DNA of 43,539 nucleotides from a virus, in IMG/VR virus record IMGVR_UViG_3300044638_004679, positions 1-43,539 of that record; one strand, 5' to 3'. The notes under the pieces are model-generated. The model was not told where the DNA came from. It searched no databases and saw nothing but the letters and a program-made list of their open reading frames with translations. Below, piece after piece: positions 3,442-41,035 of this stretch (positions are counted from its first letter, which is position 1; every line of letters begins with the position of its first letter). Made by a program: the position numbers and the translations under genes.

Positions 3442-3593
3442 TTCGCCTCCCTCGCTTTGCGATTCCTTGTCCAGTAACTGAACGCATAGTTTTTAACCTT
3501 CTTAGCCGCCTTATGGATTTCTCCAGCCTCCTTCTTGGTGATGGTGTACACGCCGGTGCCGCCATCGATGATGCTCTTGATCCTATCGCTCAC
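3438..3593 (-). CDS. Small basic protein, 51 aa
   Basis: A GTG at 3593 overlaps the ThyX stop (GTGA 3590-3593) and GAGGAGG lies in the last ThyX codons. The frame runs 51 codons to a stop overlapping the next ATG. The protein (VSDRIKSIIDGGTGVYTITK...) is lysine-rich and ends RNRKAREAK, matching the KEAK-type tails of the array. Not recognised. Overlaps on both sides make it a convincing gene despite its size. Confidence 0.65.
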   Translation of the reverse strand: MSDRIKSIIDGGTGVYTITKKEAGEIHKAAKKVKNYAFSYWTRNRKAREAK

Positions 3594-4240
3594 TTGATGC
3601 CCTCCTCAATTGCTGCGTGGATGTGTGGGAATTCAATCGCGAAGATCGTGTCGCGGATAGCTTCGGCGATCTGACGATGCTCTTTCTGCGTACCCTTCGC
3701 GCACCGCTGCTCCAGATAATGAATCCATGATCGAATGTTGCCAGTCATGTAGAGTGTAGTCTGCGTACAGAGCGGCAAGACCATTCGCGCCGTCTCGCGG
3801 CTCACGCCTTCCCTAAGCAACGTCCGATAGGTTGTGAACGCAAGTTCAACAGACTTAGCAACCACATCCATGGCCCACTCCTGCGGATACATGTCGCCGC
3901 TTCCTTGACGATTCGCTCTGTCCTGAGTGCGAAGTTCAATCGGTTCAACCTCGTCGCACGGCGCATAGCGTTGTGAAAATTCTTGGAAGCAAAAGCTGCG
4001 ATGCCTGATAATCTGAGCGGATATGGCGCGGCTTGTCTGAATCTCGACCGTCATACTAGCCTGCTCAAAGATGCTCCAGTGGCCGTTCTTGATACAGTAG
4101 GCCAATAGCTTTGGAGCGGTCAGCAGACTCATCTGATTGCTCGGATTACTGACTCGCGCTGCGTAGGTGATGAAATCGGATGCGGTCAAAGCGCCGTCAC
4201 CGACAATTGGTTTCGTGATTGCTGCTAGTTTTACTCTCAT
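3590..4240 (-). CDS. thyX: Flavin-dependent thymidylate synthase (ThyX)
   Basis: ThyX makes dTMP from dUMP using FAD, NADPH and methylene-tetrahydrofolate. The family signature RHRx7S is present at about residues 79-89 (RHRSFCFQEFS), continuing into QRYA, and the 216-aa length is typical. Later residues (TRMVLPLCTQTTLYMTGNIRSW, in two parts) match the conserved C-terminal helix region. In phages it supplies thymidine for replication; here it is coupled to the small-gene operon downstream. The start ATG 4240 is preceded by TTTGTATCC without an SD site. Confidence 0.95.
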   Translation of the reverse strand: MRVKLAAITKPIVGDGALTASDFITYAARVSNPSNQMSLLTAPKLLAYCIKNGHWSIFEQASMTVEIQTSRAISAQIIRHRSFCFQEFSQRYAPCDEVEPIELRTQDRANRQGSGDMYPQEWAMDVVAKSVELAFTTYRTLLREGVSRETARMVLPLCTQTTLYMTGNIRSWIHYLEQRCAKGTQKEHRQIAEAIRDTIFAIEFPHIHAAIEEGIK

Positions 4241-14454: not shown

Positions 14455-15693
14455 ATGGCTTGTCCCAATGTCTTCAACGCCTTCGCCGTAGCGACTGAGT
14501 CGCTCGCGCAGGACGTTTATAAACGCGCCTCGTATCGCTCGATGTGGCTCAATATGATTGAGCGCGGAGAGTATCCTCAAGGTACTGGCTTGACCCAGAC
14601 CTCGTTCACCACCACTTCCATCGAGCCGACTGCGGCTGAGGAGTGGTCGGCTATCACGCTCGCCAGTGGCGAGAACGGTGGCGCTTGCGATGTCACTTAC
14701 AGCGAGGTTCCGGTCGGCTATAATGCCGTTACTTGGAGTCCTGAGCGTTTCGCCCTCAAAGGTCCGCTCCTGTGTAAGGACGATCTGACCTTCGACCATC
14801 GCGTCGAGGCGTTCTTGCGCGTGTACTTGGAGAAGCTCTCGATCCGCGCACAGCGTTCATGGGAGACTCGCTATCAGAACACCTTCGCCAAGTTCGCCAT
14901 CAAGGCAGTGGCCGACTCGTCCTTTACTCAGGTCGAGACGATTCCCTCTGGCGTGAATGAGTTCCCGTGGATTCAGACCGGATCGGCTGGTCAGGCGCTC
15001 AATCAGTCCACCTCTGAGTTGACTCAGGAGATGCTCGATGTCGCGGCTGCTACGCTGATTCGTAACGGTGCGACGAATCCTGATAGCTCTGGCTTCATCT
15101 CGTACAGCAGCGATGGTCCGGTATTTCCGCTATATATCGGCTTGGAGGCTTCGCAGCGTATCGCTCAAAACAACCCCGCGTTCCGCGATGACTTGCGCTT
15201 CGCTGATCAGGGCAGTGGCGCTGGTGCGGAGTTGCTCAAGCGGATCGGTGCGAACCGGGTGATTAAGAACTATCGCCATGTGCCGAATCTGTTTCCGCCC
15301 CGCTTCACCTATGCTGGCGGCAAGTACACGCTGGTGCAGCCGTTCACCAGTGCGAGCGGAACGAAGGGTACTGTGTTCAGCGTCAATTCGAGCTGGACGA
15401 CTGCTCCGTACGAGGCTGCGTTCATCGTGACTCCGTATGTGTTCAAGAGCCACATCGTGCGGCCCGTGAATCGGGTTGGCGATCTTAGCTGGATGCCGAC
15501 CAACTACATGGGCGAGTGGCAGTGGGTGACGGGTGCCTACAAGCTCGATGTGGATTGCGCCGATCCGCTGGAGAAGAAGGGTCAGCATTATGCTGAGTTC
15601 GTTCACGCTTCGGAACCAATATTCACCAACCAAGGAATGACGATCATCTTCCGTCGTTGCACCGGCGCGCTGACTCAAATCATCTGCTCGTAA
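14455..15693 (+). CDS. Probable major capsid protein, 412 aa
   Basis: The length, mixed alpha/beta composition and absence of a signal peptide fit an HK97-type capsid subunit. Seen: a helical N-terminal arm (FNAFAVATESLAQDVYKRAS), a middle with FLRVYLEKLSIRAQRSWETR, and a long P-domain-like beta section ending with FTNQGMTIIFRRCTGAL. Thirteen-odd Trp and Cys residues, including a Cys near both ends, are unusual. No other gene in the window is as good a candidate, but the family is not matched by a specific motif. Two terminators follow immediately, as expected for a highly expressed gene. Confidence 0.65.
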   Translation: MACPNVFNAFAVATESLAQDVYKRASYRSMWLNMIERGEYPQGTGLTQTSFTTTSIEPTAAEEWSAITLASGENGGACDVTYSEVPVGYNAVTWSPERFALKGPLLCKDDLTFDHRVEAFLRVYLEKLSIRAQRSWETRYQNTFAKFAIKAVADSSFTQVETIPSGVNEFPWIQTGSAGQALNQSTSELTQEMLDVAAATLIRNGATNPDSSGFISYSSDGPVFPLYIGLEASQRIAQNNPAFRDDLRFADQGSGAGAELLKRIGANRVIKNYRHVPNLFPPRFTYAGGKYTLVQPFTSASGTKGTVFSVNSSWTTAPYEAAFIVTPYVFKSHIVRPVNRVGDLSWMPTNYMGEWQWVTGAYKLDVDCADPLEKKGQHYAEFVHASEPIFTNQGMTIIFRRCTGALTQIICS

Positions 15694-16900: not shown

Positions 16901-17920
16901 ATGTCAAAGCAAACCATCAATATCGGCGCATCGCCGAACGACGGAACGGGGACGCCGCTGCGGACTTCGTTCGATTACACCAACCAGAACTTTACGGAGC
17001 TATACACGGCTCTTGGAGGCGGCGTTGGTCTTCCCGGTGCGACGACTCAGGTCATCTTCAATGATGGCGGAACGAATCTGGCAGGCGATGCAGGTCTGGT
17101 TTACAACAAGACAACCGATGCGCTGACCGTTGCCGGACTCGTTACCGCTGGCTCCGCAACGATCACTGGCGATCTGACGGTGGACACAAACGTGTTGAAG
17201 GTTGATTCGACGAACAATGCGGTGGGTATTGGTACAGTAGTCGCTCCAGTATACTCATCCAAGCTGCGAGTGGAGGGTGGTGTCGAGATTCACACATCCC
17301 AAGCGTTAAATATTCAACCCGGCAACACAAACCCTTACGAAATTGTCAACCGCAGCGCAGGTGGTTTTGCTTTTTACCCGACAGGTTCAACGTTGGGTCT
17401 GACGCTGGCTCCGTCGGGGAACTTGTCTCTGGCAAACGGAAACCTAGTAATGTCCACCTCCGGCAAAGGCATCGACTTCTCCGCTGTTACCGGCGGAACC
17501 GGAACGGCGACTGGGAACGTACTGAACGATTACGAGGAGGGTACGTGGACGATTGGACTGACGTTTGGTGGTGGAAACACAGGGCTAACTACAGCCTTAA
17601 ATACTGGACGATACACAAAGATTGGAAGACAGGTTACTGTTTGCGGCCGTCTTGAACTTTCAAACAAAGGATCGTCTACTGGAGCAGCCGCTATAACCGG
17701 ACTTCCTTTTTCAATCGCAAGCGGAAACGATTCACAACAAGCAGCCAGTTTCAGGTTTAATGGAGTTTCCTACACTGGATCTTTTCAAGGGTACGGAGGA
17801 GTAAGCTCAACATCAATTAATTTGGAGCAAATATCAGAGGCTGGTTCACCTACAGATATAACTAATTCTAATTTTAGTAACGGAACCAGTATTCAGATTA
17901 GCTTCACCTACACCGTCTAA
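16901..17920 (+). CDS. Tail fibre / receptor-binding protein, 339 aa
   Basis: The N-terminus (QTINIGASPNDGTGTPLRTS then YTNQNFTELYTAL) is a common tail-fibre attachment segment. It is followed by repetitive beta structure (LTVAGLVTAGSATITGDLTV) and a C-terminal receptor-binding type domain with VLNDYEEGTWTIGLTF, YTKIGRQVTVCGRLEL and ITGLPFSIAS. The C-terminal third is much more A/T-rich than the rest, as expected for an exchanged tip. No chaperone-like peptidase was seen. Confidence 0.8.
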   Translation: MSKQTINIGASPNDGTGTPLRTSFDYTNQNFTELYTALGGGVGLPGATTQVIFNDGGTNLAGDAGLVYNKTTDALTVAGLVTAGSATITGDLTVDTNVLKVDSTNNAVGIGTVVAPVYSSKLRVEGGVEIHTSQALNIQPGNTNPYEIVNRSAGGFAFYPTGSTLGLTLAPSGNLSLANGNLVMSTSGKGIDFSAVTGGTGTATGNVLNDYEEGTWTIGLTFGGGNTGLTTALNTGRYTKIGRQVTVCGRLELSNKGSSTGAAAITGLPFSIASGNDSQQAASFRFNGVSYTGSFQGYGGVSSTSINLEQISEAGSPTDITNSNFSNGTSIQISFTYTV

Positions 17921-19370: not shown

Positions 19371-20552
19371 TTAGCGTCCTAACGACTTCAGGACGTTCGT
19401 GACGAAGTCCTCGCTCTTCGACCCATTCGCACTTGATGCACGGGAGCCGCCTGCTGTTGCTTTCGAGCTAACACCGGGTTCACTGCCTCGATACTTCGCT
19501 AGTTCGGCTTGTAGGCGCTTGTTTACTTCAACCTGAGAGTAGAGAAGCTCGCGGTATTTCGGCGCGGCAGCGGCCCATAGAGCGGCTTTGGCGAGGTCTT
19601 CTTCGCTGTTCTCGCCATTGAAGATCTGTTGGGCGAGGCTAAGTCGGCCAGTCAGTTCCGTGTTCCATTCGTCGTCGTTCTCACGCGGCTCAAAGATTTC
19701 CAGCGCACGCGCATTCTCGCTGACCTTTGTCCATGTTTTATTGGCCGACTCCAATGCAGCGCGAGTGCCTTCCTCGTTGTCCTGCTGGTACTTCGAAATG
19801 ATCGAGTCGTAGTCGGACTTCGCTTCGGACATCTCCGCAGACTTCTCGCCGTTAATCTCGTCGTACTTGACGATTAAAGCGCCAAGCTTCGCCTTCTTAG
19901 AGGGCGAAAGACCCTCAACGATGTCGTCGATCTGCGAGTTGCGATAATCGTTCTCAGGGGACTTGAGTAGGCCAACAAGCCTGTCGCCATCCGTGCCAAC
20001 GACAGATTTCATCGAGTCGAACACGCCGGTAATCTTGGCTTCGTACTTTTTGACGAAGTTGGGGTGGCGCTCAATGTCGAGGAGTCGAACACGTTCGGAA
20101 AGCGTGTCGCGCTCCTCCTGCAAAGTCTTGAGCTGAGCTTCTAAGTTCGGATTGGCAACCTTGCCAGACTTCATCTCCTCAAGCTGCTTGGCCAACTGCG
20201 CCTTCTCTTCCTTGATCTTGCGGAAAGCATCAGCGGCCTTCGTAGACTTGATCGACTCAGGGATGCCAGAGTCATCAGTAGCCGAGGAATCCTCGGTAGC
20301 TGGAGCCTTCTCCTTCGGACTGAACATCCGCTCGATATCCATCTCAGACTTGCTGAGCTTGGTATTCGCTTCGGACTTAGGCTGCGTTTGCTTCTTCTGC
20401 TTAGGCTCCTCGGTTACTTGCGAAGCTTTTGCACTAGCCTCTCCAGCGGCGGCATCCTCAAGAGTGTTAGCCTTGAAAGATTCGATGAAGGAGCTTTCGA
20501 AATCAGGCGTTTGCGCGGAGTTAACGGTCGGTGAGTTCAGTGGTTCTTCCAT
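19371..20552 (-). CDS. Probable scaffolding protein, 393 aa
   Basis: Acidic and Ser/Ala/Glu-rich. It has a disordered N-terminus, a central coiled coil (IKEEKAQLAKQLEEMKSGKV, AQLKTLQEERDTLSERVRLL), a helical C-terminal half and a flexible tail with TAGGSRASSANGSKSED. These are features of podovirus head scaffolds, which guide capsid assembly and then leave. The position downstream of the portal agrees. The capsid gene is in a different operon. No protease motif is visible. Confidence 0.7.
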   Translation of the reverse strand: MEEPLNSPTVNSAQTPDFESSFIESFKANTLEDAAAGEASAKASQVTEEPKQKKQTQPKSEANTKLSKSEMDIERMFSPKEKAPATEDSSATDDSGIPESIKSTKAADAFRKIKEEKAQLAKQLEEMKSGKVANPNLEAQLKTLQEERDTLSERVRLLDIERHPNFVKKYEAKITGVFDSMKSVVGTDGDRLVGLLKSPENDYRNSQIDDIVEGLSPSKKAKLGALIVKYDEINGEKSAEMSEAKSDYDSIISKYQQDNEEGTRAALESANKTWTKVSENARALEIFEPRENDDEWNTELTGRLSLAQQIFNGENSEEDLAKAALWAAAAPKYRELLYSQVEVNKRLQAELAKYRGSEPGVSSKATAGGSRASSANGSKSEDFVTNVLKSLGR

Positions 20553-20558
20553 AAAATG

Positions 20559-20891
20559 TTAGTATTGTTTTTCAAATGTTGCTTCAGGTTCTCTCGTTGT
20601 GTCGGTTACTGCAAGTTTTCGAATGTTTTCAAGACAATGCGCGTAGCCAGCAGTCACGCCAGCAGCGAAAACAATGTCCGATTCCTTGCTTCCTTGGGAG
20701 GGCATAGGCACCGGCATCGACTCAGCCACGATGCGTAAAGCCATCCGAAGAATCGGATTTCGTAAAATAAGCGCAAGTTCGCCCTGTTGGCCAGCCGTTG
20801 TCCATTCGAGAATGTCTACCTCAGGCAAGTCCATCAGGCTTTTCGCCATCTCCTTGCGGTTCTTCGTCGAGCCTCTTAGCCAGTTCATCAT
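20559..20891 (-). CDS. Hypothetical head-region protein, 110 aa
   Basis: Helical protein: KSLMDLPEVDILEWTTAGQQ, then LILRNPILRMALRIVAESMP and AAGVTAGYAHCLENIRKL. Small helical proteins of this type sit beside scaffold genes in podoviruses, with unknown role. The first ATG overlaps the GH130-like gene by 71 bases; a later ATG at 20849 would reduce this. Confidence 0.6.
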   Translation of the reverse strand: MMNWLRGSTKNRKEMAKSLMDLPEVDILEWTTAGQQGELALILRNPILRMALRIVAESMPVPMPSQGSKESDIVFAAGVTAGYAHCLENIRKLAVTDTTREPEATFEKQY

Positions 20892-22176
20892 ACTTTGATT
20901 TCTTGTTTCGTTTTAGTTTATGTCTCTGCGGAATTGGATCGAGAACTTCGTCGAGTTTGATTGGGTTCTCTTTGTTGACGACGTCACGCTTGGGTCGAAT
21001 CACCTTCGTCACCTCAAGCAAGTCGGCCAACGGAATCTTGATGTAACCGCAGTCTATGTCGTTGATTCCGTACGAGACGACGAACTTATTCTTTGCGCTA
21101 TCGAAGAATGCGCCGCATGGGAAGACGACCGCAGGCAATCCCGGCCACCAATCCTGCTGATTCGTTCCAGTCAGAAGCGGCAGCGTCGTCATTCGGACAA
21201 TGCGGAAAGGCGGCTTCGCTTCAAAAGCGTAGGCACCCATGTAGTAACGGCGCTTCTTGTTGATCCACGGCAGCGAGCTATGGAAGAAGGTCCAGTACAA
21301 GCCGTCGCATAGGATCGGATTGGAGCCTCCGCGCACCTCGCCAAACTTCCAGAGCGGATTGAACTCGTCGGTGACGTACTCCTCCTCCTTCTCTAAACGC
21401 CCATTAAGGCGTACAACGACGTGTGGATTGGCCGAATACACCATGTGTGGCGCGTTATCGTGGACGAAGTAGAGCCAGTTCTTCTCATGCCCATCGTTGA
21501 TCATGGCCTGCGCGTAGTTGTTGCCGTAGATCATGTCGAAACGGCCTACGTTCAGGAAATGCTTGTCCAGAAGGAACATTCCTTGGTGCGCGTAGCTCTT
21601 GAACGGGACGAATGTGCAGCACGCAAGACCGTACTTGTCGCCGAATTTTAGGACGCGAGGGTCTTCGAACTGTTCGAGGGGATAATGGGAGATTAACTGG
21701 GTCAAAGACTTCTTTGTGGCGCGAAGATCCTGACTCAGCTCGAAGATGACGATGTCGTTCTTCTCGATGTAGACATCCTCGTCCTTCTCGCGCTTGTTAC
21801 GGCAGCGACGGGCAAAAAGCATGATGCGACCATCTGGTTCGAGCATGATTGCCGGGTTGAAGTAGTACGTCCCCGTTTCCTGCGGCAGGACGATTTTGCC
21901 AGTCTCCCAATCGGTTTGTTCACTCAGCTTGGGGACGTCATTTTTTGCGTAGCTCATTAGAAACTCGGCAGCGAATTTGATTTCATCGTAGAGGGCGAGC
22001 CAATGATCGCGCTCCTCGCGGACCTCGGTCAGATGCTCGTCATGTTCTTTGGTTCGAATCTCAAGCGTTTTGCGAAGGTCTTCGATTTCCTGAAGAAGAT
22101 CCGCAGGACCATCGCCACCCGTTGCAAATCGTTTGAGAGCTTTAAGGGACAGGCTTCGGATTATGTCTTTCATCAT
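20821..22176 (-). CDS. GH130-like beta-propeller glycosidase/phosphorylase with coiled-coil N-terminus, 451 aa
   Basis: Residues about 25-75 form a coiled coil (LLQEIEDLRKTLEIRTKEHD...). From about 100 the protein shows the pattern of five-bladed propeller sugar enzymes of GH130/GH43: YYFNPAIMLEPDGRIMLFAR, FEDPRVLKFGDKYGL (EDPR, 171-174), GGSNPILCDGLYWTFFHSS, RRYYMGAYAFEAKPPF, VVFPCGAFFDS and FVVSYGINDIDCG. GH130 enzymes act on beta-mannosidic bonds, many as phosphorylases. The coiled coil suggests attachment to a larger assembly. It closes a glycosyltransferase/methyltransferase cassette, so it may build or trim a virion glycan. Activity is inferred only. Confidence 0.7.
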   Translation of the reverse strand: MMKDIIRSLSLKALKRFATGGDGPADLLQEIEDLRKTLEIRTKEHDEHLTEVREERDHWLALYDEIKFAAEFLMSYAKNDVPKLSEQTDWETGKIVLPQETGTYYFNPAIMLEPDGRIMLFARRCRNKREKDEDVYIEKNDIVIFELSQDLRATKKSLTQLISHYPLEQFEDPRVLKFGDKYGLACCTFVPFKSYAHQGMFLLDKHFLNVGRFDMIYGNNYAQAMINDGHEKNWLYFVHDNAPHMVYSANPHVVVRLNGRLEKEEEYVTDEFNPLWKFGEVRGGSNPILCDGLYWTFFHSSLPWINKKRRYYMGAYAFEAKPPFRIVRMTTLPLLTGTNQQDWWPGLPAVVFPCGAFFDSAKNKFVVSYGINDIDCGYIKIPLADLLEVTKVIRPKRDVVNKENPIKLDEVLDPIPQRHKLKRNKKSKYDELAKRLDEEPQGDGEKPDGLA

Positions 22177-22802
22177 GGATACAAGTTTGTGTTCTCCTGC
22201 GTAGCTAACCTTGGAAGAACCCCGTAGAAGTTCATCCTTGGCATTGAATCGACCAGCATCTGGATGTCGATTGGTGCCCAGACCTTTTGATTCGTTTCGA
22301 GGAGCTTACAAACGCCCTCGTAATTTACAAGATATGCGTGGGTACACATGCCTCTCACCAGTTTGTAGAGGTTTGATGCGATGTAACCGTGGTCTTCGAT
22401 GGGGTCGGTGCAGCAACTTCCGAGGTAGACGACGTGCCAATCATTCGGAAGGAACTGAAGGTTGTCATTGGCCTTTGCTTTCCAGTTCTCGTCAAGAAAC
22501 TCAACGTCATCCTCGACGATCAAGAAGGTGCGATGATCGGTTACCTTCGATTCAACCATCCACTTGATGGCCGACCAGACGGAGAAGTGACTAAGTCCGG
22601 CGACGATGGTCTTGCACTTCGCCTTCTCCTTCTCGCGAGTGTGATAGTAGTCGGTTGAAATGCCGCAGTTATGCGAACGAAAGCCGTAAATCGGAACCGC
22701 ATCGATTCCGAATGACTTCATGTATCTGATGCACCGCTTCTCTTTTTCGCCCTCAGGTTTTGAGACGATGAAGGTCGGTGTATTCTCGAAATCAACTTTC
22801 AT
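22173..22802 (-). CDS. GT25-family glycosyltransferase, 209 aa
   Basis: ATG 22802 overlaps the upstream stop (ATGA). GT25 features: IVAGLSHFSVWSAI (about 67-80), FLIVEDDVEFLDENW with the EDD motif near 97-99, WHVVYLGSCC (about 122-131), and MCTHAYLVNYEG. GT25 enzymes transfer galactose or related sugars from nucleotide-sugars, typically to lipooligosaccharide. In this phage the acceptor may be a virion protein or glycan. It is paralogous to 23394-23996. Confidence 0.85.
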   Translation of the reverse strand: MKVDFENTPTFIVSKPEGEKEKRCIRYMKSFGIDAVPIYGFRSHNCGISTDYYHTREKEKAKCKTIVAGLSHFSVWSAIKWMVESKVTDHRTFLIVEDDVEFLDENWKAKANDNLQFLPNDWHVVYLGSCCTDPIEDHGYIASNLYKLVRGMCTHAYLVNYEGVCKLLETNQKVWAPIDIQMLVDSMPRMNFYGVLPRLATQENTNLYP

Positions 22803-23389
22803 CGGTTTGGAAGGATGTAGATGATGCCACGTCGCGCACCTGTGCATCGGCTCGGATGATTGTAGTAGTAGCTATAGCCATAACGCTGAGTTAAAGTTTT
22901 AGCCCTATAAATAGCGTCTAGCTTCTCTTTAACGTATCCAAAACATATTTCATGCTCTTTGTAAGCGTCGTACCCAAGTTGTCCAGTGGGTTCTTTGAAG
23001 TCGTGGATTGCGATGACTGGATGAATATCGAACCGATTGATTGCCTCAAGCTCTTCGAGAAGCGGTAGATAGTCGTTCCAATGCGCGTCGAGGAAGAAGA
23101 TTGTGTCGTGTCCAACCCCGTGATGCGGGATGAACCAGTTCATGCAGGCATCGCTGCTGCCTTCGAACATCTCGACGTAGACATTCTCGCGCTTGAACCG
23201 TTCCTTCGCCTTCTCAACCCGATCATTGTCGAGTTCGCAGGAAACCGTCTTCAGGAAGTTCTTGGCCAACCAGATGGTCGTATCACCTTCGTGCGTTCCT
23301 GTTTCGACCGCAGTCGTCAGCTCGAAGCGTTCCTTGAGGTAAAGGAACTCCTGCTCAATGAATGTGTCTCCGTTGAATGGTGAACCCAT
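22799..23389 (-). CDS. SAM-dependent methyltransferase-like protein, 196 aa
   Basis: Motif I is VETGTHEGDTT (28-38), followed by SCELDNDRVEKAKERF as the acidic SAM-binding strand and FFLDAHWNDY (98-107), where an Asp-His pair could bind metal or substrate. This is typical of small class I methyltransferases next to glycosyltransferases, often acting on sugars. It has no nucleic-acid methylase motif (no NPPY or PC). Its stop overlaps the next start. Confidence 0.75.
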   Translation of the reverse strand: MGSPFNGDTFIEQEFLYLKERFELTTAVETGTHEGDTTIWLAKNFLKTVSCELDNDRVEKAKERFKRENVYVEMFEGSSDACMNWFIPHHGVGHDTIFFLDAHWNDYLPLLEELEAINRFDIHPVIAIHDFKEPTGQLGYDAYKEHEICFGYVKEKLDAIYRAKTLTQRYGYSYYYNHPSRCTGARRGIIYILPNR

Positions 23390-23393
23390 AGTT

Positions 23394-23996
23394 TTAGTCG
23401 GCTAAATTCATTCCCTCTTGGTCGGCGACACGCGGGAAAATTGTGAAGCAGTTGAGGTGATGCTTGCTGTTGAAATACATCTGCAAATCAATCGGAGCGT
23501 AAATTTTCTCGTTCGTCTCGATCAACGTCTTCAGCGCCTTCTTTCGGACAACGTAGCAGTGGGTGCAGAGCGGCATCCCCTCGAACAGATTGGAATCATA
23601 CTCACGGCTAATCTTGCCGTGAACGCAGCATGAGCCGGGATAGAGCAAATCCCAGTTCTCAGGAAGCTTGGTTAGAGCGCGTTCAACCGTCTCGCGCCAG
23701 TTCGGCCTGAACAAGATGTCATCCTCAAGCACCATGACCATCTCAGGAGTGTTTGGATCAAACTCTAGGGCGTTCCAGAGCATCCAATGCGACATCGTGC
23801 ATCCGACATGCTTGTGGCAGATTGTGTATCCAGAGCCGGGGTTATCGACCTCGTACGGAATGCTGGCCTTTAGCCCAGACTTCTTCCCATCAAGACCATA
23901 GAAAATCCGATAGCTATTGATTCCAGCGGATTCAAGGTTTTCTTTTAAGCGCGGGATGCGAGAAGAACCTCGCACTGTGATAACGACCGTTTCCAC
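23394..23996 (-). CDS. GT25-family glycosyltransferase, 200 aa
   Basis: Shows the GT25 pattern more fully than its paralogue: N-terminal METVVITVRGSSRIPRLKEN, HVGCTMSHWMLWNAL (about 63-77), VMVLEDDILFRPNW with EDD at 91-93, LLYPGSCC, PLCTHCYVVRKKAL, and APIDLQMYF. It probably adds a second sugar in the same pathway as 22173-22802. It follows the methyltransferase at 24001 by 4 bases. Confidence 0.85.
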   Translation of the reverse strand: METVVITVRGSSRIPRLKENLESAGINSYRIFYGLDGKKSGLKASIPYEVDNPGSGYTICHKHVGCTMSHWMLWNALEFDPNTPEMVMVLEDDILFRPNWRETVERALTKLPENWDLLYPGSCCVHGKISREYDSNLFEGMPLCTHCYVVRKKALKTLIETNEKIYAPIDLQMYFNSKHHLNCFTIFPRVADQEGMNLAD

Positions 23997-24000
23997 GGGG

Positions 24001-24618
24001 TTACTTTAACTTTCGATAGATGGCAAATACGCTCTCGTTAAGGTCAAATCGCGAAATAAATTCGCAACGCTTGAGGACGAACTTGAGGGCTGTCTGAGTT
24101 GAATCCCAGTTCACATCGTCCATGACGAGATATCCGCCAACCTTTAGCTTTGGGAGCCAGTTAACGACATCGCTCGTAGACGGCCATTCGGCGTGATTGG
24201 CATCGATGTGAACCATGTCCATTTCCGGCAGAAATCGTGAAGCGTCCCACGAAGACATACGGCAGAACTGAATGTTCTTCACGACTCCAGCGCGAACTGT
24301 GTGTCCAACAAAAGCCTCGTAGTGCCTGTCCAGATCAAGCGTAGCCCACCACTCTTGATTCGCAGTAGACTCGTCATCGATACAGTCCTCTTTCTTCCAA
24401 GAGTCGATGGCGTAAACGGTTCCGCTTCCGTTGAGCTTGCATGCGTAGGCCAGAGCAAGCGTTGACTTGCCTTCAAAAACGCCTACTTCAGCAATCCTTT
24501 GAGGCTTTGATTCGAGGACAAGCTTGGCAATTTCAAGCCCCTTTTTCGGATCGCACCATCCTCCCATTTTAGGGAACTGATCGGCGATGAATTGAGCGAC
24601 ATTTTGTTCGTTTTCCAT
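24001..24618 (-). CDS. Class I SAM methyltransferase (Methyltransf_24 type), 205 aa
   Basis: SAM-binding motif AEVGVFEGKST (43-53), TVYAIDSWKKEDC (acidic residue after the second strand), MDMVHIDANHAEWPSTSDVV and KVGGYLVMDDVNW. The HIDANH...DD pattern is that of Methyltransf_24 enzymes, many of which modify sugars or small molecules. First gene of the cassette after the portal, with 3 bases between them, so co-transcribed with head genes. Confidence 0.8.
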   Translation of the reverse strand: MENEQNVAQFIADQFPKMGGWCDPKKGLEIAKLVLESKPQRIAEVGVFEGKSTLALAYACKLNGSGTVYAIDSWKKEDCIDDESTANQEWWATLDLDRHYEAFVGHTVRAGVVKNIQFCRMSSWDASRFLPEMDMVHIDANHAEWPSTSDVVNWLPKLKVGGYLVMDDVNWDSTQTALKFVLKRCEFISRFDLNESVFAIYRKLK

Positions 24619-24621
24619 ATT

Positions 24622-26871
24622 TTATCCCTGACGCGACAAGTTGGATTCCGCAGTTGCATTCGCACGTTGAATATCAGCGGTTGTCTTCGCATTCCGGCGC
24701 GACAAATCTGCCATCGCCTTCGTGTTCTGACGCTGGATGTTGGCCATAGTCTCGGCGTTCTGGCGAGCGATTTTCGCCTGAACCTCCGCGTTCATCACAG
24801 CAGTACGAGGATCGGAGCCTTGCTGAATTGCCTGAGCTTGCTGCTGCTGAGCCATCGCTTGCTGCTGCTCTTGGAGCATCTGACCAAGCTGCTCAACGGT
24901 CTGCCCGAGCATTCCGAGCTGCTGGACGTACGCATCGACCTGCTGCTTGCGCGACGGATCGGTTGCGAGCCTCTGGATGTGCTGCTGAACATGCTGACCA
25001 ATACCCTGCATGAAGAGCATGATTTCCTCTGGGTTTCCGCCACCTTGAAGCGATGACGCCGCTTCATTCGCCGCGCCAAGGTGAGTCTCGATGTGGATGA
25101 TCTGATTCTGCGTATCGGTGACGAGCGGCATATTGCCCTGACGCAGCGAGGCGTGTTCGAGAACGGCCAGAGCGGCTTGATCCTGCGTACGAGACGACTG
25201 GAGCTGAGAGGGCAGATAACGATCCACCATCTGTTGGCCAACCTGTGCGGCAATATAGTCCTTGAGCAGGTTAATTTTGCCGCCCTCTGGAAGCGAACCG
25301 GACAACTGTAGAAGCGAACCGAGGAGTTGTTGCTTAGCGAACTGTGAACCTTGGCCCACAGTCCTAGTCGCCTCAACGTAGTCGATGTCGATCATCGCCT
25401 GCACGGGAACGCCACGTTCTTTGCATCGGCGCTGGAACTCGATGGCGTCCTTATCGGACTTCGTAATCGGGTTCAGATTAGGATTCGAAGCGCGGTTGTA
25501 CCGTTCCTCAAAGAAGGAATCGAGCTGAGTGTAATACCGGCTCAACTGCGTCTTACCGATGGCGGACTGCTGCGAGACGATTGCTTGGACTTCCGTCGCT
25601 GTACGGGGGTTGCCCTGCGGCTTGTTGAGCGATTGGCGATACTGAGAGAGATTGCCTTGAAGAACATTTTCAAGGTCCGCATTGACCGCCATTGGAGCAT
25701 CCAGAACTCCAGCAATATTCTGCTGAACGACTTCGTAATCTGGCGGAAGAATGGCATACGGTCCTTGCTGTACGACGCTTGTCTTGCTTAGCGCATTGGC
25801 GTTCAGGGGTCGGAATAGAATCTGAGTCCTCGCAAACGCGCTATCTACCATTGAGCAGCGAAGACGATTCTTTAGCTCCATCGGCTGAAGCATCTTGATG
25901 CCCAAGCCCTTTACACCGTGATGTTCGCCGTCGCCACGGTCGTAGTACATCGGATGAATGACCTGCTCCCATCGGCTGAACCGGCGAAGCTTGCGATACA
26001 TGAAGCTCTCGCTGTCGCGTTCGTCGATGATTACATGGCTGATCTGACCATCGAATTCCTTGTAGAAAACGTGGCACATCAACACGACCTCGGAACGAGC
26101 GGAAAACGTGATGTCGTTTGAGCGAAGCTGCTTCTGGAAGAACTCCCAGTCGTACTGCACACCGGAGCGATACGGCTCGGGCATCGCCGCACGAATGCGC
26201 TGGCGGACATAATCAACATCCCAACCGGAAGCTTTTGCCGCCTTTTCGTCTTGGATCTTCTCGAACAGATCATCCACGCCCATGCGCGTGCGGACGCAGG
26301 CCACCTTCCAGTCGCTTACGTTTGACTTGGTGCCGTCTGGGACAAGCAGATCCGTCGCCATGATGGCTTTGCAGCGCCAGTTGGTATTGTCCTCGAAGAT
26401 CAGCGGACCATCGCCAATGAGGACCATCTCACGCTGCGAGAGCTGCATGATGTAATCGAAGTCCTTGTCGAGCTTCTGGAGCCGATCAAACTCCTCGGTG
26501 ATGATCTTCGACCATTCCTCCCGCTTATCCATGTCATTACCGTACGCGGTACGAATGTTTGTGTAGGTCGGAACCTCGGCGAACACGTCGTAGAAGGCTG
26601 ACATTGCCAGCGTGAGGAACGCTTCCGACTCACGGAAGTTGACGTTGGTGCGGAACGCTTGGTTGTTGCGGCGCAGTTCTGCTGGATTGTACGGAGGATT
26701 TCCATCGACCAGACCGCGCAGCTTGGCTCGCGTACTATTACGCAGCTCATCGGCCATGATAAGCTTCTGGAAGATTTCGCGAGCGGATGCCGCGTCGGCT
26801 ATGCGCGTTTCAGGCGCTTTGCCGTCTTCGTTGATAGTTTCAAGCGGCAGTTGGGCTAGGTTTCCGTACAT
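24622..26871 (-). CDS. Portal protein, 749 aa
   Basis: A large portal of the podovirus head-to-tail connector type. It has an N-terminal helical region, a core with WSKIITEEFDRLQKLDKDFD, FEDNTNWRCKAIMATDLLVP and RWEQVIHPMYYDRGDGEHHG, and a long stem/crown helical region (QSRTQDQAALAVLEHASL). The C-terminal 130 residues are Gln-rich, with imperfect 14-residue repeats (RQNAETMANIQRQNTKAMAD...). T7-like portals are about 530 aa, so this one is enlarged mainly at the C-terminus. It lies directly after the terminase and the cysteine-rich gene. Confidence 0.8.
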   Translation of the reverse strand: MYGNLAQLPLETINEDGKAPETRIADAASAREIFQKLIMADELRNSTRAKLRGLVDGNPPYNPAELRRNNQAFRTNVNFRESEAFLTLAMSAFYDVFAEVPTYTNIRTAYGNDMDKREEWSKIITEEFDRLQKLDKDFDYIMQLSQREMVLIGDGPLIFEDNTNWRCKAIMATDLLVPDGTKSNVSDWKVACVRTRMGVDDLFEKIQDEKAAKASGWDVDYVRQRIRAAMPEPYRSGVQYDWEFFQKQLRSNDITFSARSEVVLMCHVFYKEFDGQISHVIIDERDSESFMYRKLRRFSRWEQVIHPMYYDRGDGEHHGVKGLGIKMLQPMELKNRLRCSMVDSAFARTQILFRPLNANALSKTSVVQQGPYAILPPDYEVVQQNIAGVLDAPMAVNADLENVLQGNLSQYRQSLNKPQGNPRTATEVQAIVSQQSAIGKTQLSRYYTQLDSFFEERYNRASNPNLNPITKSDKDAIEFQRRCKERGVPVQAMIDIDYVEATRTVGQGSQFAKQQLLGSLLQLSGSLPEGGKINLLKDYIAAQVGQQMVDRYLPSQLQSSRTQDQAALAVLEHASLRQGNMPLVTDTQNQIIHIETHLGAANEAASSLQGGGNPEEIMLFMQGIGQHVQQHIQRLATDPSRKQQVDAYVQQLGMLGQTVEQLGQMLQEQQQAMAQQQQAQAIQQGSDPRTAVMNAEVQAKIARQNAETMANIQRQNTKAMADLSRRNAKTTADIQRANATAESNLSRQG

Positions 26872-29182: not shown

Positions 29183-29221
29183 TAGTTCTCGCTGGACTTG
29201 ACGGTCTGGCAAAGGAAAAAT

Positions 29222-30433
29222 ATGCCGTCGCAACTTGTTTCTTCAACCGGCTGTTGCCAGCCTTGCGATACCGTTCCGGTTGTCGTGAACGTCCCCGGAC
29301 CACAGGGTGCTGCGGGTACTAACGGAACAAACGGCGCGAACGGAGAAAATGCGTTCTCGTATACGACCGCGTCGTTTGTAGTTCCGACGTTTGGAGCATC
29401 GGTTGTCGTTGCGGTTGCGAACACTTCGTTTCTTCCAGAGTCGGTTGCTGGACAATTTTTTGTATCGGTTCAGGGATGTGGCTACTTGCAGGTTACATCG
29501 GTAGACGGCTTGCTGGTAACCCTTCAAAACCCGCTTGCAGGTGTTCTCGGAGTCCCAAATGCGATTCCTACGACGGTAATTCCACTTGGCTCGCTTATCA
29601 CGCTGTCGGGTGCGATTGGTGCCACAGGGGCTGCTGGCGTTGCAGGCGGCGCGCCATCTGCCGGAACGTACATTCTTCGAGTTCCTGACGCAGCACTCGC
29701 AAGCGCAACGGCCCTCAATTCGTTTTCATCCGGTTATCTTAAGACTCAAGGGTCAGCCGGATCAGGTTTTCTTTCGACTACAGCAACGGTTCCTGTGGGC
29801 GACATCAGCGGAGTATTGCCGGTTGCCAATGGTGGAACAAACGTAGCAACCGTACCTACCAATGGCCAACTTCTGATTGGCAATGGAACTGGTTACACGT
29901 TGGCTAGCCTTACCGCAGGGTCGAACATCACGATTACTCCGGGTGCAGGAACGATTGCTATCGCCGCCACGGGGGCTGCGGCAGCGTTCAGTTACGTCAC
30001 GTTTACGCGGAGGGTGACTGGAACCGGAGCATCCGCTCCGAATATTGTTGGTCCTACGGCTGGCAGCAATCCGTACAGCACAACGACTTACGGGTCCGCA
30101 TCCTACGTCAGTCTTGATAGCGCATCAGGATTTACAGCATCGAGCGGTCGATTTACGGTTCCATACACCGGATACTACAGGATTGACGCATATTTCAACC
30201 TTGTAGCAGATACTTCTACTGCAAGCGTTACTATTTACATTAGAAAACTTGGTTCAAACGTATTGTCGTCAAAGTCTTTTAGTGTCACCAGCAGTGGATA
30301 TCATCCGATTAGTTTGATGTATATTGATCAAGCATCTGCGATTACCGATTATTATGAAATAATTGTTGGAACTACGCAGACGCTGATTGTTGACAGCGGC
30401 TCTTCATTCTCCGTTCAGCGGATTCAGGCTTAA
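29222..30433 (+). CDS. Collagen-like tail fibre with C1q-like tip, 403 aa
   Basis: ATG 29222 has AAAGGA about 7 bases upstream; an earlier start would reach into the divergent gap. Order: Cys-containing N-terminus (SSTGCCQPCDTVPVVV), collagen-like GPQGAAGTNGTNGANGEN (about 30-47), beta repeats including GVLPVANGGTNVATVPTNGQ, and a C-terminal domain with SSGRFTVPYTGYYRIDAYFN of the C1q/TNF-like kind. Probably a trimeric fibre that binds a cell-surface glycan. First gene of the rightward structural operon. Confidence 0.75.
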   Translation: MPSQLVSSTGCCQPCDTVPVVVNVPGPQGAAGTNGTNGANGENAFSYTTASFVVPTFGASVVVAVANTSFLPESVAGQFFVSVQGCGYLQVTSVDGLLVTLQNPLAGVLGVPNAIPTTVIPLGSLITLSGAIGATGAAGVAGGAPSAGTYILRVPDAALASATALNSFSSGYLKTQGSAGSGFLSTTATVPVGDISGVLPVANGGTNVATVPTNGQLLIGNGTGYTLASLTAGSNITITPGAGTIAIAATGAAAAFSYVTFTRRVTGTGASAPNIVGPTAGSNPYSTTTYGSASYVSLDSASGFTASSGRFTVPYTGYYRIDAYFNLVADTSTASVTIYIRKLGSNVLSSKSFSVTSSGYHPISLMYIDQASAITDYYEIIVGTTQTLIVDSGSSFSVQRIQA

Positions 30434-36021: not shown

Positions 36022-37713
36022 ATGGATCTACAACCTAATCGAAATGTTGGTCTTGAGAATCAGCTTCAGGCCATCCAGCTAGGCGCAAGCCTCTACGACC
36101 GTGCACAGACGCAGAAGCGGATGATGGAGCAATTGCAGGTGCAGACGGCGGAGTCGCTGATCCAACGGCAGGGTATGGAGCTTCAGAATAAGATTCGCGA
36201 AGATTCACTTGCTGAAGCAATTGGAGAACGGAAAGCGCAGGTTGATGAGTACAACACGTTCTCGACTCTTGGTAAGCAGGTTTCGGATTATCTGAGCAAC
36301 ACTAAACCGGGCGCAGTATTTCCAGTTGTTCCGCCATTTAAGTCTAAAACGTACAGGGCTGAGGCGGACAAGATGATGAACAACCTTGAGAAGTATTCCC
36401 CTCGGGCCGAGTTGTTAAAAACTCAAGAGAAAGCAAGAAACGGAGCAATAGCTAATCAAACTGCTATCTTAAAAGAAGCGATGCAAATTCCCGGCGCAGT
36501 TGACATTAATCCACAAACAGAAGAGCCAACAATAAACTGGACAGTTTTTAATGCGGGAAGAAAACAGGTATTTGATGCTTCGGTTCAAAAAACCCAAGCT
36601 CAGACGGGTTCAATTGTTGGTAATCTTCAGCTTTCTAGGGACAAGCTAAATGCGTTAATTGCAAATAACGCAAGCGATGCAGAGATTGCAATGGCAAGAC
36701 TTGCTGTTGATAAATCTTTTAAAGAAGCAAGGGTTAAACTTGATGAAGAGGAGTTCGGGTTCAATAAACAATTCAAAACTACAGAACTTGGAATTAATCA
36801 ACAGAGAGTAGATATTGCAAAAAACAATCTACTTCGACTTGAGCAAGAGGGTAAAGATAAGAAAGCCATTGAAGAGGCTAGAATGATCTATCGCGATGCG
36901 TTAGATAGCAAGAAGCTAGAACTTGAAAACAAAAAGTTTGATGCTACCAAGGGTGTTCAACTTGAAAAACTTGAACAAGGAAAAACAAGGTTGCAGCAAA
37001 ATCAGCAGCGAATTGATGCTTACAAGCAGAAGCTGCTTCAACCTGTAAAAGCAGGGGAAATCAAACTTAATTCTGTTGATGATAGAATGGTAAAGAAATT
37101 TGCCGATGATATCTCAAACAAACAGGGAACATCTGATGCGATTGGTTATGAAATTTCAATTTTAGAAGATCCAACTATTGACGATTATGTTAAAAGAGCG
37201 TCAGCTCAAAACATATTGAAAGTATTAAACAGCGCAGAAGGAAAAGATGCTGTTGGGGTTGAGGAGGCAAAACGTCTTGGCCAGTTTCTTGAATTTCAAA
37301 TAAACCCAATCAGGGCAATTTCAACTGGAAGAGCGTTTGGAACGGATATGCCTCGATTTATAGAGCAGATTTCAATTAAGAAAGGCGAGCTTGATACGCG
37401 TGTTGATCAAAGCATGGTTCGCATAAACGATATTTACAAAAAATATGGAAAAGAGATTCCTGCTGGAACGTCTCAAACGCCTTCAAGAGGATCGTTAATG
37501 ACAGCTCCTGCTCCTCAAACGATGCGCTCCACAAACGCCCCTGCAATGTCGCAAACAAACTCGCCGAGCATGTCTCCGACAAACGCTCTGGCAATGTCTG
37601 GAACGAATTCGATGTCAGAAATATCATTTGAATCAACGGCTGAAGCTAGGGCAAAAGGAAAGAAAACTGGTGACTTTGTAATCATTAAGGGCGTTAAGGG
37701 GAATCTAAAATAA
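36022..37713 (+). CDS. Internal virion protein, coiled-coil, 563 aa
   Basis: Almost entirely helical, with long charged Gln/Lys/Glu stretches (QVDEYNTFSTLGKQVSDYLS, LNALIANNASDAEIAMARLA, NNLLRLEQEGKDKKAIEEAR). The C-terminus has an imperfect 7-8 residue repeat with NAPAMSQTN, NSPSMSPTN and NALAMSGTN. Length and position correspond to a middle internal protein (compare T7 gp15). Base composition falls markedly after about 36400. No enzymatic motif seen. Confidence 0.65.
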   Translation: MDLQPNRNVGLENQLQAIQLGASLYDRAQTQKRMMEQLQVQTAESLIQRQGMELQNKIREDSLAEAIGERKAQVDEYNTFSTLGKQVSDYLSNTKPGAVFPVVPPFKSKTYRAEADKMMNNLEKYSPRAELLKTQEKARNGAIANQTAILKEAMQIPGAVDINPQTEEPTINWTVFNAGRKQVFDASVQKTQAQTGSIVGNLQLSRDKLNALIANNASDAEIAMARLAVDKSFKEARVKLDEEEFGFNKQFKTTELGINQQRVDIAKNNLLRLEQEGKDKKAIEEARMIYRDALDSKKLELENKKFDATKGVQLEKLEQGKTRLQQNQQRIDAYKQKLLQPVKAGEIKLNSVDDRMVKKFADDISNKQGTSDAIGYEISILEDPTIDDYVKRASAQNILKVLNSAEGKDAVGVEEAKRLGQFLEFQINPIRAISTGRAFGTDMPRFIEQISIKKGELDTRVDQSMVRINDIYKKYGKEIPAGTSQTPSRGSLMTAPAPQTMRSTNAPAMSQTNSPSMSPTNALAMSGTNSMSEISFESTAEARAKGKKTGDFVIIKGVKGNLK

Positions 37714-37717
37714 TTTT

Positions 37718-40700
37718 ATGGACGAATACGTTTTGCAGGGGGATGGCCAACAAGGTCAGATGGATGCCGGTCAGCCGTTGACTGCTGCTGATGTTACTTT
37801 TAGTGAACCCGCTCAAAATCAGCAACAGCCGCAACCAGTCGCACAAGAGGATGCTTTTGCTGGGTTTACTCCGAGCGAACCCATAACTAATGAATCAGAC
37901 CCATTTGCTGGGTTTACTCCGAGTGAACCTAAAATTGGTTCAATGGAAGCTGTCCAGCAAGCTGCTAGTCAGGCTTCGCTTGTTGGGCGTGATACGTTCA
38001 GGCCAAAGAGTCTTTTGGTTCAGCAGGCTGACCTTTACCTTGGCCGCCCTAGCGCGGAAAAATTTCAGAAACTTGAGGCCACTGGATTCAATCCAGAGCC
38101 AGCAATCGAACTTTCCGATGCAGAGCAGAAGCTTTTTAGAGACTATAGGATTCGACAAGGTAGAAGGACTGCTGCAAACGTGGTGGGTCTTGTTGGCGGA
38201 ATCGGTACGGCATTTCTTCCCGGCGGACAGTCCGTTGCCGGTGAAATGATTGGCGGCTTTGGCTCTGCATTGCTTGCTCAAGCTATCTCTCCAGATCCGT
38301 TTGATACTCAAGAAGCTGCATCTCAAGCAATACCGCTTCTTTCGCGTTCTAAAAAAGCAAGAGAAGGCGCTGGGTTTTTAGAATGGCTTCGCACCACTGA
38401 AACTGGAGTAGGCCAGCAATCTACAAGAACGAAACAGGCTCTTAAAGAAATCATCGCTGGAGCAGGAACTGGAGGGTTGCAGGGTTTTGCGTCAACGCTA
38501 GGAGATGAGTCTGGAAAAACGCAAGAAGTGCTGAAACAAGCAGCGCTTGGAGGGCTTTTGCTTCCTACTTTTTCATCTGGAGGAAGAGCCGTCAGCGCGG
38601 CGTTGAGGTCATCTGGAAAAACAGAAGGATTTTTAGGCCGTTTTGTTGGAGAGCTTGAAAGGCCATACGCTCAACAGTTTTTGCAAGAAAGAGCAGATTT
38701 TATTCGAAGAGAAATTGGACCCGGAGGAGGAATTGACCCAGCAATGGCAGAGCAATTGGCCAACACTCTTTATTCCCCCCAAAGGTCTGGTAGTCGCCCA
38801 GAGGACATTCGCGCTTGGCAGGGAAACATCACCGATTTCCTTCAAAATTCTATCAGGACTGGAAACGCAAACGGACTAAGCGGAGATGAGCTTACTCAGC
38901 AAATTGTTAAAGCTCTTGAGAGTGTAACAGAAACAAAAAATATAGACCAAAACCTTGTCAGCGGAATTGTGTTGAATGCCGAACAATTGATCGGAGATGC
39001 AAAGAAAAAAGCAAGTGAAGCTTTTGTTGGAAAAAACGCAGATCTTCTTGGCGCTGCTCTTAGGTCTGAAGGAGATTTACAGCTTAATTCTCAATATCTA
39101 TTTCGTGAAATACTAAGTTTAAACGAACAGAGAAAATTGATTTCTGTAAACGACCCAGTTTCAATTGAAAGGATCGACAACGATATTGCTTACAAGCGAA
39201 AGCAAATTGACGACATTGAAAACGGATTTGATCCTCAGTTTGGATACGGAAAACCTGCCACACAGTTTGGAACCGGAAAAGAATCTGGAGAGTATGCGAA
39301 TGTTCTTTACAAAGAATTTCAAGCTGCTCAAGAAAAAGGTTATGATCTTTTAGAGCCTAAACTTAAATCAATATCTGTTGATGTTCCAAAAGTTGATAAA
39401 GATGGAAAACCAGTCAAAGGTGATGACGGAAATCAAATCATTGAAACCTTTACGCTTAAAGATTTAAAAGAACAAAGAACAAAAATATTTAAAAAAATAG
39501 ATTTTGACAAAAAAGTTCAACAAGCTGATTACGAAGATTTTCTAGAGCTTGAACGTATTGAAAAAGTAATGGAGAAGGGTCTTAATACAGATCCTAAATT
39601 TAAGGCTGATTTTAAAGCTCAAAGCGCTTCATATCACGAAGGCATAACTAGGTTCAAGGGGGCTATTATCTCTAAGCTTATGAGAGATGTTGGAGAAGGA
39701 GGAGGAAGCCCTGAAGTTGTTCTTAGTATTCTTGGCGAGCGTGGCGGCGAAGCCTTGGAGGTAATGAAGAAGTTGGCGGCTGAAGAATGGGAGCCTACGT
39801 TCAAGCCTTTGATTTCCGAATTTGTTTACAACAAGCTTCGAACCATAGGTCAAAAACCGGAAGAGCTTTTATCTTTGTTAACGGAGGCAAAAATGGGAAA
39901 AGGCTCTAAATTGACAAAAGAAGTTGCCGATGAGTTTTTTCCGCAGTTGTCTCAAATCCAAGATGTTGCAAGCAAGTACCGTGGACTTGTAGATCAACAA
40001 GCAAATTTGATTTCAAAGAAAAATGATCTGGTTACAAAGTCTGAAGATTTGTTATCAAAAATTGATGAAGGGCAAACAGAAGCTGCCAGTCTTTATCGAG
40101 AAAACGAGAAAAGACTAACCGAAGTTAGATCTGAAATTGAAAAGCTTAGAACGTCAAAACTAGTCTTTGACCCCGAAACGAATGAAATGATTAAGACTCT
40201 TTCTGACCTGAAAAGCGCTGTAAGAGGTGAAAAAATTGTAAATTTGGACGAAGAAAAGCTTAAGGCAATTTTGTCGAATCCTAATGCGGCAAACTTGACT
40301 AAAGATCTTAATATCTACGTTCAAGAAATGGCAAAAGAAGCGACTGATTTTCAAAAGTTGGTAAAAAACTCGATTGAAACAGGCGATCTTTATGGCCCAG
40401 CAACACCTAAAAATATTGTCGATTTCTTGACAACACCCAAGGGTAAGCTTGGAACAGGTTTTGTTGCTGATGAATTTATGAAGGTGATAAGGTCAAATAG
40501 ACCAGACCTTCTTGGAGACGTTCAAAACTTTATAGTTGGAAAGATTGTTGAAGAGTCTTTTAAACCCGGAAAAAAAGAGATTAACATCGAAACGATGAGG
40601 AGTCTCATTTCAGACAAGTACAATCCTTTGATCCAACAAGCATTTGGAAAAGAAGGGGTTCAGAGGTTGAACAAGATCGCAGATCAACTTTCGGTTGTTG

Positions 40701-41035
40701 TTGAAAAAGAGAGCCTTCTTAACAGCAAGATTTTACCCGCGCTTACATCTGCCGCTGCCGCTGCTGCTGGCGTCAAGTTTCCGGGGAGAGTTTTCCTGTC
40801 AACTGTTGTTGCCGAATCCGCAAGATCGGCTGTTGGAAAAGCTCTTCTAACCAGAGAGTTTCGCGATGTGGCGTCTAGGCCGCTTGATCAGATTACCAAA
40901 GATCAGATGGACACCTTCAATCGTCGCTGGCCAAAGCTTCTTACGCTTGAAGGTGAGCGTTTGATGATGCGCGAAGAAGAGCGCAAGGATGCTGAACGTC
41001 CTAAAATTCCGTCAGCCGCAGAGCGTCGCTTCTAA
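37718..41035 (+). CDS. Large internal virion protein, 1105 aa
   Basis: The longest gene in the window, placed like T7 gp16. A disordered N-terminus has a duplicated FAGFTPSEP motif (direct DNA repeat at 37856-37881 and 37904-37929). Then comes a glycine-rich hydrophobic part near 145-190 (VVGLVGGIGTAFLPGGQSVA) and long coiled coils. A second small-residue segment near the end reads ILPALTSAAAAAAGVKFPGR. No lytic transglycosylase motif was found, unlike T7 gp16. It probably forms part of the ejection channel across the envelope. The middle is very A/T-rich. Confidence 0.7.
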   Translation: MDEYVLQGDGQQGQMDAGQPLTAADVTFSEPAQNQQQPQPVAQEDAFAGFTPSEPITNESDPFAGFTPSEPKIGSMEAVQQAASQASLVGRDTFRPKSLLVQQADLYLGRPSAEKFQKLEATGFNPEPAIELSDAEQKLFRDYRIRQGRRTAANVVGLVGGIGTAFLPGGQSVAGEMIGGFGSALLAQAISPDPFDTQEAASQAIPLLSRSKKAREGAGFLEWLRTTETGVGQQSTRTKQALKEIIAGAGTGGLQGFASTLGDESGKTQEVLKQAALGGLLLPTFSSGGRAVSAALRSSGKTEGFLGRFVGELERPYAQQFLQERADFIRREIGPGGGIDPAMAEQLANTLYSPQRSGSRPEDIRAWQGNITDFLQNSIRTGNANGLSGDELTQQIVKALESVTETKNIDQNLVSGIVLNAEQLIGDAKKKASEAFVGKNADLLGAALRSEGDLQLNSQYLFREILSLNEQRKLISVNDPVSIERIDNDIAYKRKQIDDIENGFDPQFGYGKPATQFGTGKESGEYANVLYKEFQAAQEKGYDLLEPKLKSISVDVPKVDKDGKPVKGDDGNQIIETFTLKDLKEQRTKIFKKIDFDKKVQQADYEDFLELERIEKVMEKGLNTDPKFKADFKAQSASYHEGITRFKGAIISKLMRDVGEGGGSPEVVLSILGERGGEALEVMKKLAAEEWEPTFKPLISEFVYNKLRTIGQKPEELLSLLTEAKMGKGSKLTKEVADEFFPQLSQIQDVASKYRGLVDQQANLISKKNDLVTKSEDLLSKIDEGQTEAASLYRENEKRLTEVRSEIEKLRTSKLVFDPETNEMIKTLSDLKSAVRGEKIVNLDEEKLKAILSNPNAANLTKDLNIYVQEMAKEATDFQKLVKNSIETGDLYGPATPKNIVDFLTTPKGKLGTGFVADEFMKVIRSNRPDLLGDVQNFIVGKIVEESFKPGKKEINIETMRSLISDKYNPLIQQAFGKEGVQRLNKIADQLSVVVEKESLLNSKILPALTSAAAAAAGVKFPGRVFLSTVVAESARSAVGKALLTREFRDVASRPLDQITKDQMDTFNRRWPKLLTLEGERLMMREEERKDAERPKIPSAAERRF
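37856..37929 (+). repeat. In-frame 26-base direct repeat
   Basis: The unit TTTGCTGGGTTTACTCCGAG plus NGAACC occurs at 37856-37881 and 37904-37929, 48 bases apart, with one base difference. It encodes FAGFTPSEP twice in the N-terminus of the 1105-aa virion protein. Confidence 0.85.

Follow-up and report, generated by a model that had tools for sequence, protein, structure and literature searches.

What is modified by the methyltransferases and glycosyltransferases that a phage encodes in the midst of its head genes? The question is raised by a virus stretch of 43,539 nucleotides (IMG/VR record IMGVR_UViG_3300044638_004679, analysed at full length and referred to as the window), in which four genes for such enzymes and one for a GH130-like propeller protein follow the presumed portal gene. 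An earlier note made from the sequence alone had read these genes as a cassette inserted between portal and scaffold, producing a methylated glycan, perhaps on capsid or portal, through expression with the head genes. Relatives of the window were gathered by scans with the portal and the GH130-like gene as queries, which yielded well over 100 related contigs and a test set of 156 loci with a full portal gene and at least 4.5 kb of downstream sequence; as some of these loci derive from the same source contigs and, therefore, overlap, the counts for the variable region are based on distinct interval sequences.

Organization of the locus

All five open reading frames predicted at 20821-24618 were found there on the minus strand (Table 1), and their tight spacing was borne out: the portal stop codon and MT1 are separated by 3 bases, MT1 and GT1 as well as GT1 and MT2 by 4 bases, and the MT2/GT2 and GT2/GH130 junctions are ATGA overlaps (position 22802, not 22847, is most likely the start of GT2). 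The dN/dS ratios of the cassette genes relative to the relatives were approximately 0.03-0.13, with silent sites near saturation at the distances compared; all five are under purifying selection and are, therefore, regarded as real, selected genes. Terminator- or promoter-like sites showed no excess across the region, and the cassette is presumably co-transcribed with its neighbours.

Within the head and packaging genes, TerL is the sole confirmed assignment (phrog_2, 1.4e-23). The portal, scaffold and capsid identities are presumed from position and size, as the candidates obtained no support from Pfam, PHROG or PDB profiles; the presumed portal shares 80-100% identity among the relatives. 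With these positional identities the location of the cassette between portal and scaffold holds, whereas its insertion into an ancestral portal-scaffold pair is not demonstrable because an empty site was present in none of the 156 testable relatives. Indeed, the locus was kept in 156/156, each with the GH130-like gene; relatives carrying these genes always elsewhere, named beforehand as contrary evidence, did not occur.

Table 1. Features of the window discussed in the text (coordinates refer to the whole window).
Feature	Coordinates	Strand	Basis and remarks
MT1, family F1: O-methyltransferase, Methyltransf_24/TylF-like	24001..24618	-	Pfam 8.5e-20; motifs kept
GT1, family F0: GT25 glycosyltransferase	23394..23996	-	Pfam 5.6e-14
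MT2, family F3: class I SAM-methyltransferase-fold protein	22799..23389	-	model pLDDT 75
GT2, family F2: divergent GT25	22173..22802	-	Pfam 1.9e-4; EDD invariant; ATGA overlap
GH130-like five-bladed propeller, conserved N-terminal helical extension	20821..22176	-	Pfam 4.6e-11
Presumed portal, conserved left flank of the slot	24622..26871	-	position and size; one gene between it and TerL
Gene of 110 aa	20559..20891	-	always between GH130 and scaffold (conserved order)
Presumed scaffold, operon end	19371..20552	-	position
Capsid candidate, 412 aa, highly conserved	14455-15693	opposite, convergent with scaffold candidate	position
Virion-region protein with six collagen-like triplets (GPQGAAGTNGTNGANGEN)	29198..30433	+	candidate acceptor, lead only
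Two long tail-end genes (563 and 1105 aa)	36022-41035	+ (operon)	likely receptor-binding or fibre genes; GC down to 0.37-0.41 in parts
Structural protein	16901-17920		N-terminus conserved, C-terminus swapped
ThyX	3590-4240		detected in about half of the compared genomes (some contigs incomplete)

Predicted functions of the encoded enzymes

MT1 combines a Methyltransf_24/TylF domain score with conserved SAM motifs, and its profile matches the solved O-methyltransferases NovP and CmcI. MT2 was assigned by fold: its Pfam score is below the cut-off, and its structural model gave hundreds of methyltransferase fold matches (best PDB entries: NovO, CouO, COMT and other methyltransferases), so that a class I SAM-methyltransferase fold is predicted. 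The Glyco_transf_25 domain (PF01755) was recognised with 52.9 bits in GT1 and with 21.8 bits in GT2, the latter just under the Pfam cut-off of 24; the GT25 assignment of GT2 is backed by the family profile A5, in whose alignment the EDD motif is invariant in three GT25 families including GT1 and GT2. The joint profile of the three phage GT25 families was nearest, among PDB entries, to mimivirus R655 and procollagen galactosyltransferase 1 (COLGALT1; 5.6e-14). In contrast to these proteins, the phage GT25 enzymes are small and single-domain, and no lysyl hydroxylase was recognised.

The GH130-like protein matches Glyco_hydro_130 (PF04041) over the whole domain (profile positions 18-319 of 320; 42.7 bits versus a gathering cut-off of 26). 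The catalytic aspartate of the EDPR motif and the preceding glutamate, as in GH130/GT108 enzymes, are kept (E171-D172 invariant in 17 sequences). However, unlike GH130 mannoside phosphorylases, the protein carries the N-terminal helical extension and exhibits D240 and E280, both invariant in the relatives, at the positions of the phosphate-binding R/K residues in 5b0p and 7fip. This acidic pair resembles that of the hydrolase BT3780, in which an acidic pair at the phosphate-site positions marks a mannosidase (PMC4599007), and GT108 enzymes of the same fold have transferase and phosphorylase activity (PMC8950772). Based on the replaced basic residues and these precedents, the GH130-like protein is probably not a phosphorylase and may be a hydrolase or a transferase. 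An AlphaFold model of this enzyme was set aside (pLDDT 38).

The F4 glycosyltransferase (see below) and the GH130-like protein share a match to PHROG 28262. This double match suggests a natural fusion and hints that the two proteins may work together; a fused F4-GH130 gene was not found among the sequences in hand.

A variable slot between portal and GH130-like gene

The view of one fixed five-gene cassette had to be given up: four of the genes are exchangeable modules, whereas the GH130-like gene has the behaviour of a backbone gene and forms the fixed right flank of a variable slot. Between portal stop and GH130 start, 75 distinct intervals represented 10 architectures, composed of 9 gene families in all: F0, F2 and F7 (GT25), F1 and F6 (Methyltransf_24), F3 (MT2) and F5 (methyltransferases), F4 (Gly_transf_sug) and F8 (galactosyltransferase-like glycosyltransferase). 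At least one glycosyltransferase and at least one methyltransferase were present in all 75 intervals; no other families were recognised, and no interval was empty.

The exchange is frequent, with architectures differing in 123 of 218 pairs whose portals are at least 98.5% identical. In DNA alignments of near-identical phages the similarity broke at the portal stop and usually returned at the GH130 start, as between the window and loci L014, L096, L021 and L059; against L012 it returned within the slot, at MT2. The GC content is 0.49-0.51 for the variable genes, 0.55 for the portal, 0.52 for GH130 and 0.52 for the whole window. The alleles clustered by cassette type and not by backbone: median identities were 0.83-0.91 for the same architecture on diverged backbones versus 0.52-0.82 for different architectures on near-identical backbones. 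In L017, for example, the portal matches that of the window without differences in the aligned part, but MT2 has only 62% identity; in L121 the portal has 89% and MT2 92% identity.

This allele pattern is a trans-lineage polymorphism. It is compatible with balancing selection on the alleles, and also with ancient exchange from a shared pool. Tentatively, the slot may be regarded as a "coat-type" locus under balancing selection, with at least 10 glycan-synthesis haplotypes kept across diverged lineages, redistributed among near-identical backbones through recombination at the borders of genes and combined with a fixed GH130-like partner, resulting in a variable particle surface in antibody-free habitats; we consider this a serious but somewhat doubtful proposal. 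Virion glycosylation as such is already known. What is new, judged from the literature and collections searched, is that a GH130-like partner stays fixed and that complete enzyme sets are exchanged in a single slot.

The cassette type correlated with no backbone gene in 20 genomes, a small sample in which a weak association could escape, and within the same genomes no acceptor gene co-varying with the cassette type was detected, at low power. For the two tail-tip genes the permutation test gave p=0.25 and 0.20 (20 genomes, low power), so that a receptor-related role of the cassette is unsupported. The tail-tip genes themselves are swapped between relatives. The structural protein at 16901-17920, with its swapped C-terminus, has a relative in contig L253 (3336-4511) that ends in a Peptidase_S74 chaperone domain.

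Comparison with known systems and target of the modification

The closest parallel in layout is provided by the mycobacteriophages of cluster O; the F7 GT25 query matched mycobacteriophages of clusters O and F. In Firecracker (cluster O) the portal gene is followed by a methyltransferase of the TylF/Methyltransf_24 type, three glycosyltransferases (the last one a GT25), the protease and the major head protein; in the cluster O cassettes (Corndog gp35-38, Firecracker gp33-36) a Methyltransf_24/TylF gene thus stands right after the portal and precedes glycosyltransferases including GT25. In the present phages, too, the stretch of the head operon from portal to scaffold (both assigned by position) holds methyltransferase and GT25 genes, and the match in gene order and families is strong. 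However, the portal of the window is unrelated in sequence (no match among 50,697 phage records), so shared descent of the backbone with cluster O was not indicated, and a GH130-like gene was not present among the four scanned Firecracker genes. Set swapping between near-identical phages was observed in the present phages.

The cluster O gene order was described, and capsid modification by its genes proposed, in 2015 (PMC4351075); PMC11600133, citing Freeman 2023, reports capsid and tail tube as targets of the enzymes. Because the layout is the same and the cluster O enzymes are reported to modify these virion proteins, virion glycosylation with O-methylation appears to be the best reading of the locus and a reasonably probable one, so that the proposal of a methylated glycan on virion proteins made via the head operon stands as the best-supported explanation. 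The virion would be the target, the methyl groups would reside on the sugar, and selection would favour diversity; swaps in the slot probably give the particle a different sugar coat. A further case of virus-encoded virion glycosylation are the chloroviruses, whose own glycosyltransferases build the glycan on the major capsid protein (PMC11571054); these are, in contrast to the present phages, eukaryotic viruses with unrelated genes.

The main rival, late remodelling of the host surface glycan that causes superinfection exclusion or prevents adsorption to debris, with the swaps tracking host surface diversity, is considered unlikely, although the enzyme types would suit it: GT25 proteins (named LPS biosynthesis protein in Pfam) and sugar O-methyltransferases have bacterial surface glycans among their substrates, GT25 members of bacteria work on lipooligosaccharide too, and the exchange of complete sets is reminiscent of serotype loci. 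The cassette sits, however, among head genes, the association with the tail tip went undetected, and the same layout serves virions in cluster O, according to PMC11600133. Serotype conversion of the gtr type was likewise weighed and rated low: a flippase and a bactoprenol glucosyltransferase or other polyprenyl-linked transferase were absent among the five genes and the other main genes of the window that were scanned, which also speaks against the host-surface reading.

The absence of other recognised families and of empty intervals, together with a glycosyltransferase and a methyltransferase in each of the 75, speaks against a reading of the slot as a neutral landing site for recombining cargo genes without selection for product diversity. 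Frequent swaps that track no other gene would be expected of such a site, but the low dN/dS ratios and the persistence of the same types on diverged backbones render it improbable. Still less probable is a modification of the phage DNA, i.e. glycosylated or methylated hypermodified bases as a protection against restriction. DNA is a frequent target of phage glycosyltransferases, ThyX is encoded in the window, and MT1 matches a PHROG labelled DNA methyltransferase; however, MT1 belongs to the small-molecule/sugar O-methyltransferases, ThyX was detected in no more than approximately half of the genomes, and a base-hydroxymethylating enzyme was not recognised among the genes scanned. GT25 and GH130 are not known to include base modifiers.

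Under virion glycosylation, the locus would be a module of which one part is fixed and another swappable. The GH130-like enzyme, whose gene stays in place and lies in line with those of portal and scaffold, would probably make or edit a common sugar step, whereas the variable methyltransferases and glycosyltransferases would determine the remainder of a short O-methylated glycan, with SAM and host sugar nucleotides as substrates. The glycan might be attached to at least one virion protein while the head assembles, with the capsid and the collagen-like protein at 29198 as candidates. Phages of one lineage would trade whole sets through recombination with breakpoints at the portal end and, mostly, at the GH130 start, and near-identical particles would thus come to differ in coat chemistry. 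The collagen-like protein is considered as an acceptor because the GT25 profile is nearest to procollagen galactosyltransferases, which provides a lead; its triplet stretch with repeated NGT is conserved in 20/21 genomes. In genome G017 an additional open reading frame of 241 aa with long collagen-like repeats lies nearby.

Phage virion glycosylation is known mainly from mycobacteriophages, where it has been discussed as weakening recognition by antibodies. With a modular, swappable counterpart in environmental phages, the question arises of what selects variable particle glycans where antibodies are absent. In addition, the locus links a GH130-like propeller to phage glycan assembly and represents a recombination slot in a late operon whose diversity appears independent of the host-range genes.

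Distribution of the phage family

The phage family is uncultured and of freshwater type. The portal, the capsid candidate and MT1 gave no match to cultured phages (megablast and tblastn), and the GH130-like protein had no match among cultured phages at 1e-5; at a limit of 10, weak unannotated fragments only were obtained. A fragment of a related phage is carried by L253, a contig of a metagenome-assembled genome (uncultured Nitrosomonadales), which gives a weak host hint. L253 may, however, be a binning error, since this metagenome-assembled genome gave no portal match and further genomes sampled from its class yielded no relative of GH130. The contig L073 (IMGVR_UViG_3300021962_000056) has 92.5 kb, approximately twice the usual 42-47 kb, and is possibly a concatemer or a misassembly. 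Identical 127-bp ends were observed in G011 and G012, the contigs behind L096 and L119, which suggests circular assemblies and, thus, complete genomes of approximately 45-46 kb.
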